From NCBI GenBank assembly GCA_003162635.1, contig PMNE01000014.1, positions 8,898 to 52,779 of the forward strand: a DNA stretch of 43,882 nucleotides, written 5' to 3'. Numbering within the stretch: the stretch's first letter is position 1; every line of letters starts with the position of its first letter. The translations under genes and the position numbers were made by a program. Below, piece after piece: positions 1-461 of this stretch. Source of the stretch: Ignavibacteriota bacterium (GTDB lineage: Bacteria; Bacteroidota; Ignavibacteria; UBA10030; UBA6906). The notes below the pieces were generated by a model. The model saw only the letters and a list, made by a program, of their open reading frames with translations, had not been told where the DNA came from and did not search any database.

Positions 1-81
1 CCGAAGGGGGACTTGAACCCCCACGACCTTGCGGCCACTAGCTCCTGAAGCTAGCGCGTCTGCCAATTTCGCCATCCGGGC
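1..81 (-). tRNA. tRNA-Leu (anticodon CAG), 3' end truncated by the window edge
   Basis: Reverse complement reads GCCCGGATGGCGAAATTGGCAGACGCGCTAGCTTCAGGAGCTAGTGGCCGCAAGGTCGTGGGGGTTCAAGTCCCCCTTCGG: acceptor strand, D arm, anticodon stem CTAGC/GCTAG with loop TTCAGGA, variable arm, T arm GGGGGTTCAAGTCCCCC. Confidence 0.95.
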
Positions 82-116
82 GTCAACATAAGTCTCAGCG
101 ATGATCTGCTACTGAT

Positions 117-395
117 TCAATCGGACTGCGTACCGCTTATCCTGCTGCGCTGAGAAGCTATCAGATTTTTCAAGAATTCTCTTCCGCAACCGGACTTCAA
201 ATACACTTCCTCTTTCCTGGCCTCTCCACGAGTCTCGAAACTCTCAGAGTGAATCACGGCAAAAGGACGATACGATCGTGTAGTTCGTTCCCTCCCTGCG
301 TTGTGCCTGGCAATACGATTGGGCAAATCTGAGGTGAGGCCCACATAAACGTAATTCCTCACCAAGCTATGAATAGCGTAAACACTCCAAGCCAT
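117..395 (-). CDS. small GIY-YIG domain nuclease (UvrC/YhbQ-like, 92 aa)
   Basis: VYAIHS...YVYVGLTSDLPNRIARHNAG is a GIY-YIG core, followed by the family-typical ...ARKEEVYLKSGCGREFL. Shine-Dalgarno-like AGGAGAG lies directly upstream of the ATG. Confidence 0.88.
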   Translation of the reverse strand: MAWSVYAIHSLVRNYVYVGLTSDLPNRIARHNAGRERTTRSYRPFAVIHSESFETRGEARKEEVYLKSGCGREFLKNLIASQRSRISGTQSD

Positions 396-403
396 CTCTC
401 CTA

Positions 404-461
404 CCTAAAGCTAGCGCGCCTGCCTGCCGGCAGGCAGGTCTGCCAATTTCGCCATCCGGGC
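404..461 (-). pseudogene. 5'-half fragment of tRNA-Leu, interrupted by a 20-bp palindrome
   Basis: Plus-strand CCTaAAGCTAGCGCG-[20 bp]-TCTGCCAATTTCGCCATCCGGGC matches 44-81 of the intact tRNA-Leu with one mismatch; similarity stops at the anticodon loop. Confidence 0.88.
419..438. repeat. 20-bp perfect palindrome CCTGCCTGCCGGCAGGCAGG
   Basis: CCTGCCTGCC is the exact reverse complement of GGCAGGCAGG; removing it restores the contiguous tRNA-Leu 5' half. Confidence 0.9.

Follow-up and report, generated by a model that had tools for sequence, protein, structure and literature searches.

The closest described counterpart of the element reported here is SegB of phages T4 and T6, a free-standing GIY-YIG homing endonuclease that is enriched near tRNAs, amplifies tRNA segments and has no isotype preference; its mapped motif, RAWTSGAAC, is the reverse complement of the tRNA T-loop sequence GTTCSAWTY (PMC13096335). 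The present element is like SegB in that it has a GIY-YIG nuclease and no intron, adjoins and breaks tRNA genes, and shows tandem amplification of tRNA segments, and the SegB motif fits the T-loop, the interruption point of many of the element's displaced tRNA copies. It differs in being located on bacterial chromosomes phylum-wide, in having only a catalytic domain of about 90 aa, in carrying a tRNA part that rebuilds the target, with displaced copies that are broken by hairpins, and in having lineages that, as judged from the nuclease tree, keep to one tRNA identity. The GIY-YIG enzymes of group I introns (I-TevI type) have the same catalytic fold, and some insertions of the element are in the anticodon loop, but the element has neither intron RNA nor a DNA-binding tail, and its tRNA is restored at the DNA level. 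Integrase-borne tRNA islands likewise keep the tRNA whole through a partial duplication, whereas the element lacks an integrase, is 300–450 bp long, and has internal tRNA edges and hairpin-broken copies. The Rickettsia palindromic elements and other small palindromic repeats are also short palindromes inserted in genes; the hairpins of the element, in contrast, are at recurrent points of displaced tRNA pieces and are inherited with the element. The small UPF0213/SLX1-like proteins are the closest in profile and fold, and the one relative examined, in Listeria, is neither tRNA-linked nor repeated. A literature search found no description of an element of this kind, with only SegB coming close.

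The window, the whole stretch of 43,882 nucleotides that was analysed, corresponds to C81:8898-52779 of the parent contig in a draft genome of 3.1 Mb with one detectable PF01541 gene. The element is at its left end and is organized as follows:

1–81, minus strand: tRNA-Leu(CAG), 81 of 85 nt in the window, 3' end cut (Rfam RF00005, 42.3 bits)
82–116, minus strand: spacer from the nuclease stop codon to the 5' end of the intact tRNA (sequence)
117–395, minus strand: GIY-YIG nuclease gene, 92 aa, single catalytic domain (ORF; Pfam PF01541, E=8.8e-15, cut-off passed)
398–402, minus strand: AGGAG, ribosome-binding-site-like, 2 nt upstream of the ATG (read from the sequence only)
404–418, minus strand: displaced tRNA-Leu 5' part, tRNA positions 24–38, one mismatch, ending in the anticodon loop (alignment)
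419–438, no strand: perfect 20-nt palindrome CCTGCCTGCCGGCAGGCAGG at the D-loop end, AGA^CGCGC (alignment)
439–461, minus strand: displaced tRNA-Leu 5' part, tRNA positions 1–23, 100% identical to the intact copy (alignment)

Direct reading of the sequence confirmed the order given in the first-pass annotation, in which a tRNA-Leu 5' half, a GIY-YIG open reading frame and tRNA-Leu(CAG) follow one another on the minus strand, and its count of a single mismatch in the 38 nt of tRNA homology, the palindrome aside, is also correct. The AGGAG directly abuts the tRNA-derived part of the element. The last four nucleotides of the intact tRNA (NNAC, C81:8894-8897) fall outside the window, for which reason ARAGORN finds no tRNA in the window alone; the full gene is predicted in the parent contig (L007:8894-8978). 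The arrangement is far beyond chance, as the matches stand out in their own genome and more than 90% of homologous loci share the architecture.

Two features lie just outside the window. The two N at C81:8896-8897, next to window position 1, are tRNA positions 82–83 of the intact tRNA-Leu and represent an assembly join; in the relative L208 an N gap is located exactly at the equivalent tRNA end. A second tRNA-Leu(CAG) is present on the same contig (C81; L007:7151-7349), 1.7 kb before the window start, and carries a 5' half copy broken by two different hairpins, with no nuclease between them; this is probably a relic, or else a unit in which the nuclease gene was never present. The close spacing of the two tRNA-Leu(CAG) loci depends on the NN join.

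Of 150 related genomes, 107 have homologues of the nuclease, which also occur in named genomes of Flavobacteriales, Aquimarina and Algoriphagus. The first locus set (74 loci, L013–L086, the window's own locus included) contains 88 GIY domains, of which 66 are no more than 300 bp from an intact tRNA, always on the same strand (66/66). An intact tRNA gene is present in 66 of the 74 loci and partial copies of the neighbouring tRNA in 62, with the pieces arranged around the nuclease gene and on its strand; the neighbouring tRNAs include those for Leu, Ser, Arg, Pro, Cys, Gln, Met, Asn, Gly, Ala, and Val. The other eight loci lack an intact tRNA; seven of them have tRNA fragments beside the nuclease gene instead, and a search of such loci with Rfam for other RNA targets found none. 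A second set, an independent phylum-wide draw of 297 genomes, has the nuclease family in 197 and yielded 37 new loci, with a tRNA within 300 bp in 34, on the same strand in 34/34, and partial copies in 33; with both sets pooled, 100/100 nearest nuclease–tRNA pairs are on one strand. Loci of the similarly sized toxin family ParE (PF05016), used as a control, have a tRNA in 0 of 30 cases. The first-pass annotation had held that the idea of a mobile unit would fail if neighbourhoods across the family had no enrichment of tRNA fragments; the enrichment is overwhelming in both sets relative to the control. Genomes encode up to 11 copies of the nuclease among the relatives, and up to 19 in the phylum set, at different tRNAs.

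A few members have other surroundings. L037 (G098:C19), whose nuclease is within a 248-aa open frame, and L272 (G350) have no convincing tRNA or fragment nearby, and L068 (G113:C20) contains four nucleases across 8.5 kb together with tRNA-Met fragments, with no intact tRNA in 10 kb.

The loci display two layouts. In the 5' type, represented by the window, the order is 5' part, nuclease, intact tRNA; in the 3' type, which is at least as common, it is intact tRNA, nuclease, and 3' part of the same tRNA. The duplication can extend beyond the tRNA part into the flank: L045 has the terminator behind each of its two copies, and in L034 it is the upstream region that is repeated. There are also regular tandem arrays, several of them in single-contig genomes, with units of 295–450 bp:

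L078: tandem array, 427-bp units
L257 (G358): tandem array at tRNA-Leu(CAG), 450-bp units
L263: tandem array, 345-bp units
L260: tandem array, 306-bp units
L261 (G411:C1:63500-66500): tRNA-less tandem array of tRNA-Leu half, palindrome and nuclease, 295-bp units

No intact tRNA is found within the 3-kb stretch of L261, and in general the arrays multiply the nuclease and the broken tRNA piece, not the intact tRNA. No integrase is present within the array units, which contain the nuclease alone. In L257 there is also a broken tRNA half with no adjoining nuclease.

Comparison of occupied and unoccupied sites bears directly on mobility. In a survey of tRNA-Leu(CAA) in 30 genomes chosen blind to the nuclease, many of which are syntenic at this locus, partial copies are present at all 7 sites that have a GIY-YIG gene or a relic of one, against 1 of the 23 that have neither (Fisher p=4e-6). 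At tRNA-Leu(CAG), among genomes of the window's family, there are ten single tRNAs with neither half nor nuclease, and the unit is present in the window and in G003. The first-pass annotation had proposed a mobile unit of about 0.4 kb with the nuclease as its only protein, which would be refuted if relatives lacking the nuclease kept the tRNA half; on these counts they generally do not, and the proposal is supported, with mobility inferred and not demonstrated. Successive states can be seen at a single tRNA-Lys/tRNA-Leu locus within one genus: G049 has the empty site, in G091 the site is occupied, G092 was invaded twice and its first nuclease is truncated, and G069 retains a relic. Broken nuclease copies also occur among the relatives, and the loci show the presence, absence and decay at orthologous sites that are expected of a free-standing homing gene.

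What happens to the tRNA is clearest in L018 and L055, which belong to one genus and have flanks that are approximately 88% identical. In L018 the 3' end of the intact tRNA-Ser(GCT), which includes an encoded CCA, is new, as is the terminator, and the displaced copy beyond the nuclease has the native 3' end without CCA, followed by the native flank that directly trails the tRNA in L055. In this pair, the only one of its kind, the element brings its own tRNA 3' half and pushes the native half aside with its flank. A tRNA-Ser(GCT) with an encoded CCA is located beside CCA-less native copies at L018:1352-1444 and at L034:1836-1928, in two families, and the encoded CCA at both is a remnant of the donor that supplied the replacement half. 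An element with 83% identity is present in two genomes, at tRNA-Arg(UCG) in L030 and at tRNA-Arg(ACG) in L057, and the homology spans only from the tRNA start to the end of the displaced copy.

Two further comparisons were set aside. An orthologous empty site for the tandem pair of L069 was sought in its genus, and the relative has an N gap exactly there. L147 and L148 (G034 and G054) have matching flanks and the element in only one of them, with tRNA-Leu(CAA) in opposite orientations, and were not used as an empty and occupied pair.

Short inserts interrupt the displaced copies, and hairpin folding is seen in 59 of the 76, compared with 5 of 76 control stretches. The most conspicuous insertion point is GTTC^RA in the T-loop, with 17 inserts in the first set and four in the second, spanning Ser, Leu, Arg, Ala and Cys tRNAs and having hairpin sequences that are unrelated to each other. 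In 5' copies the inserts are at the D-loop end (Leu AGA^C, Arg GATA^GA): 15 of the 20 reliable 5' copies spanning the D-loop are interrupted within it by a strict rule, and three of the remaining five (L017, L043 and L044) have the same kind of insert one base outside the D-loop or at the alignment edge. Several other insertion edges are in the anticodon loop, and the Ser(GCT) copies are additionally split within the anticodon (TTTG^CTAA). A general avoidance of tRNA helices is not supported (24/76 inside, 27.6 expected, z=-0.87); what holds for the hairpins is that they recur at exact points, GTTC^RA foremost. The window's palindrome is at the same D-loop-end point in the Leu-clade 5' copies L014, L016, L017, L043, L229, L238 and L257, whereas L015 and L044 have an extended or variant hairpin at that point, and the presence of the palindrome at this place in loci of several families indicates that the Leu-clade palindrome travels with the element. 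We infer that the recurrent hairpin points are nuclease break sites, or are near them, which is supported by the SegB motif being the reverse complement of the T-loop, although there are no cleavage data. A possible second role is that the hairpins cut the repeat homology, such that recombination spares the element.

The nuclease lineages follow the tRNA and not the host. The amino acid identity of the tRNA requires 13 changes on the nuclease tree, against a minimum of 10 and 48.5 when shuffled (0/200 shuffles are as low), whereas host family requires 39, against 49.8 when shuffled. Target fidelity across horizontal spread passes this test; the tree is short (78 columns) and has many open forks, which makes the number of origins an approximate figure. 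In several genomes there are nucleases linked to two or three different tRNA types.

The protein itself is a member of the GIY-YIG superfamily by its PF01541 domain, its conserved Tyr/Tyr/Arg/His/Glu residues and its fold. Residues Y6, Y17, R27, H31 and E63 are invariant in an alignment of 23 sequences (A1), and AlphaFold2 gives a confident single GIY-YIG domain (pLDDT 94.8), with UPF0213, SLX1 (PDB 1zg2, 1ywl, 6seh) and the I-TevI catalytic domain as the nearest in sequence profile and fold. No DNA-binding domain is recognisable beyond the catalytic domain, either with Pfam or in the AlphaFold2 model, and the specificity for tRNA could thus reside in recombination rather than in the nuclease. 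No NCBIfam model matches the nuclease above its cut-off, and PADLOC has no match for the element. A PHROG match to homing GIY-YIG proteins is weak (E=0.005); only the catalytic fold is shared with SegB-type enzymes, and there is no close phage homologue. Plasmids, phages and viral contigs were searched for a vehicle and have no homologue except a distant Listeria gene of housekeeping type, and a phage or plasmid vehicle was rejected.

We considered four other explanations of these loci. The nuclease could be a resident UPF0213/SLX1-like housekeeping enzyme that is near tRNAs by chance, the pieces being decayed tandem tRNA duplicates, much as the first-pass annotation had allowed for the window in suggesting a decayed tRNA-Leu pair beside a resident gene. 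Its sequence and fold are indeed closest to those proteins, and tandem tRNA genes are common, but a resident gene would not be expected at many different tRNA sites per genome, with presence and absence at orthologous sites, with hairpins at identical points across taxa, or without partial copies where the nuclease is absent, a point on which the blind tRNA-Leu(CAA) survey contradicts it. UPF0213 should be a single conserved gene without mobile context, and is not matched by a family with up to 11 or 19 copies per genome; the Listeria relative, a single gene in a trmN6-rsmI neighbourhood without a tRNA, illustrates what a housekeeping-type gene looks like. This explanation is not tenable family-wide, and we regard it as very improbable. 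We give still less credence to the nuclease being encoded by a group I intron of a tRNA, or by the relic of such an intron. GIY-YIG enzymes are known from group I introns, the anticodon loop, where several of the insertion edges are located, is a known intron position, and there is a weak NCBIfam match to a group I intron endonuclease (E=0.0036, far below the cut-off); against this, Rfam finds no intron RNA in the window or the other loci scanned, the tRNA is whole and uninterrupted with a second partial copy present, and the units are only 295–450 bp.

The other two explanations accept a link between nuclease and tRNA and read it differently. SegB amplifies tRNA segments in phage T6 (PMC13096335), and the tandem arrays could reflect a similar accordion, in which selection for tRNA dosage or tRNA-targeting defence favours ordinary tandem duplication of the tRNA region, with the nuclease driving local amplification and not homing between chromosomes. 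That the arrays multiply the nuclease with a broken piece and not the intact tRNA, that most sites have single units, and that lineages cross host families with fidelity to the target all make this unlikely, though it cannot be dismissed outright. Alternatively, the hairpins may be the mobile unit, with dispersed palindromes entering tRNA copies and the nuclease mobilising them as RAYT enzymes do REP elements. Consistent with this, the same palindrome is dispersed in many genomes, its copy number is weakly correlated with the nuclease count (Spearman 0.39, uncorrected for relatedness), and unrelated hairpin sequences are found at the same point; however, most dispersed copies examined are away from tRNAs, and some palindromes are also present in genomes lacking the nuclease, and we consider this reading improbable.

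We favour, with good though not complete confidence, a minimal selfish element of the free-standing GIY-YIG homing type that is specialised on tRNA genes, for which cleavage and transfer are inferred. It has one GIY-YIG gene of approximately 80–95 aa on the tRNA strand, with the intact tRNA on one side and a hairpin-broken displaced piece on the other, and as expected of a free-standing gene it is outside introns and inteins, at tRNA genes. The anatomy, the same-strand rule, presence and absence, tRNA half replacement (in one clear pair), fidelity, arrays and decay are observed. By analogy, the best reading is that the element behaves like a free-standing homing endonuclease, with SegB as the nearest and homing itself inferred. 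The nuclease would cut the tRNA gene on a chromosome that lacks the element, and recombinational repair, with the tRNA sequence as its guide, would copy the element in; as seen in the L018 and L055 pair, the incoming tRNA half with its own flank would leave the host with one working tRNA, and the native half would be displaced. Repeated events could give rise to tandem arrays, and later decay of the nuclease could leave only broken tRNA pieces. The hairpins, whether at the T-loop GTTC^RA, the D-loop end or the anticodon loop, may label the displaced copy's cut site or destroy it, and may block the recombination between the two tRNA copies that would excise the element.

Several points stand against this homing interpretation, among them the lack of a recognisable DNA-binding domain and the reliance on a single pair for direct evidence that a native half is displaced with its flank. 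The restored tRNA is intact and should remain a target, and how it escapes cutting is unexplained: it is the displaced copies that are interrupted, while the intact tRNA keeps the target sequence. Cutting of the donor allele by free-standing GIY-YIG enzymes is usually inefficient, according to the SegB paper (PMC13096335). There are also broken halves without a nuclease, at L257 and at the second tRNA-Leu of the window's genome.

There is a substantial chance that the element is a class of its own, and it seems to rank among the smallest known mobile elements. We know of no free-standing homing endonuclease with a restored target and a hairpin-broken copy. A stronger version, which we advance only tentatively and which may well prove wrong, is an autonomous class of approximately 300–450 bp in which the bare GIY-YIG domain recognises conserved tRNA loops (with the break at C56/R57 of the T-loop or at the D-loop end), brings in a replacement tRNA part as it inserts, and closes off the displaced copy by a hairpin placed precisely where the break occurred; if true, little known self-mobilising DNA would be as small, and there would be a target-repairing insertion mechanism of which we found no description. 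The element may approach the lower size limit of autonomous mobile elements, and it illustrates insertion into an essential gene with a working copy handed back. It also turns the anonymous 'GIY-YIG nuclease family proteins' present in 197 of 297 genomes into one explained system of tRNA-gene selfish elements, links chromosomal elements to SegB, the phage system in which tRNAs are amplified to counter defence, and accounts for many pseudo-tRNA fragments and probably for assembly breaks at tRNA genes.

The palindrome was also considered as a genome-wide hallmark of the element and was rejected, being dispersed, with most of the copies examined away from tRNAs. The CCTGCCTGCCGGCAGGCAGG-type palindrome is a mobile palindromic repeat, with 22–89 dispersed copies in G018, G060, G081 and G087, and 0–14 in the other relatives.
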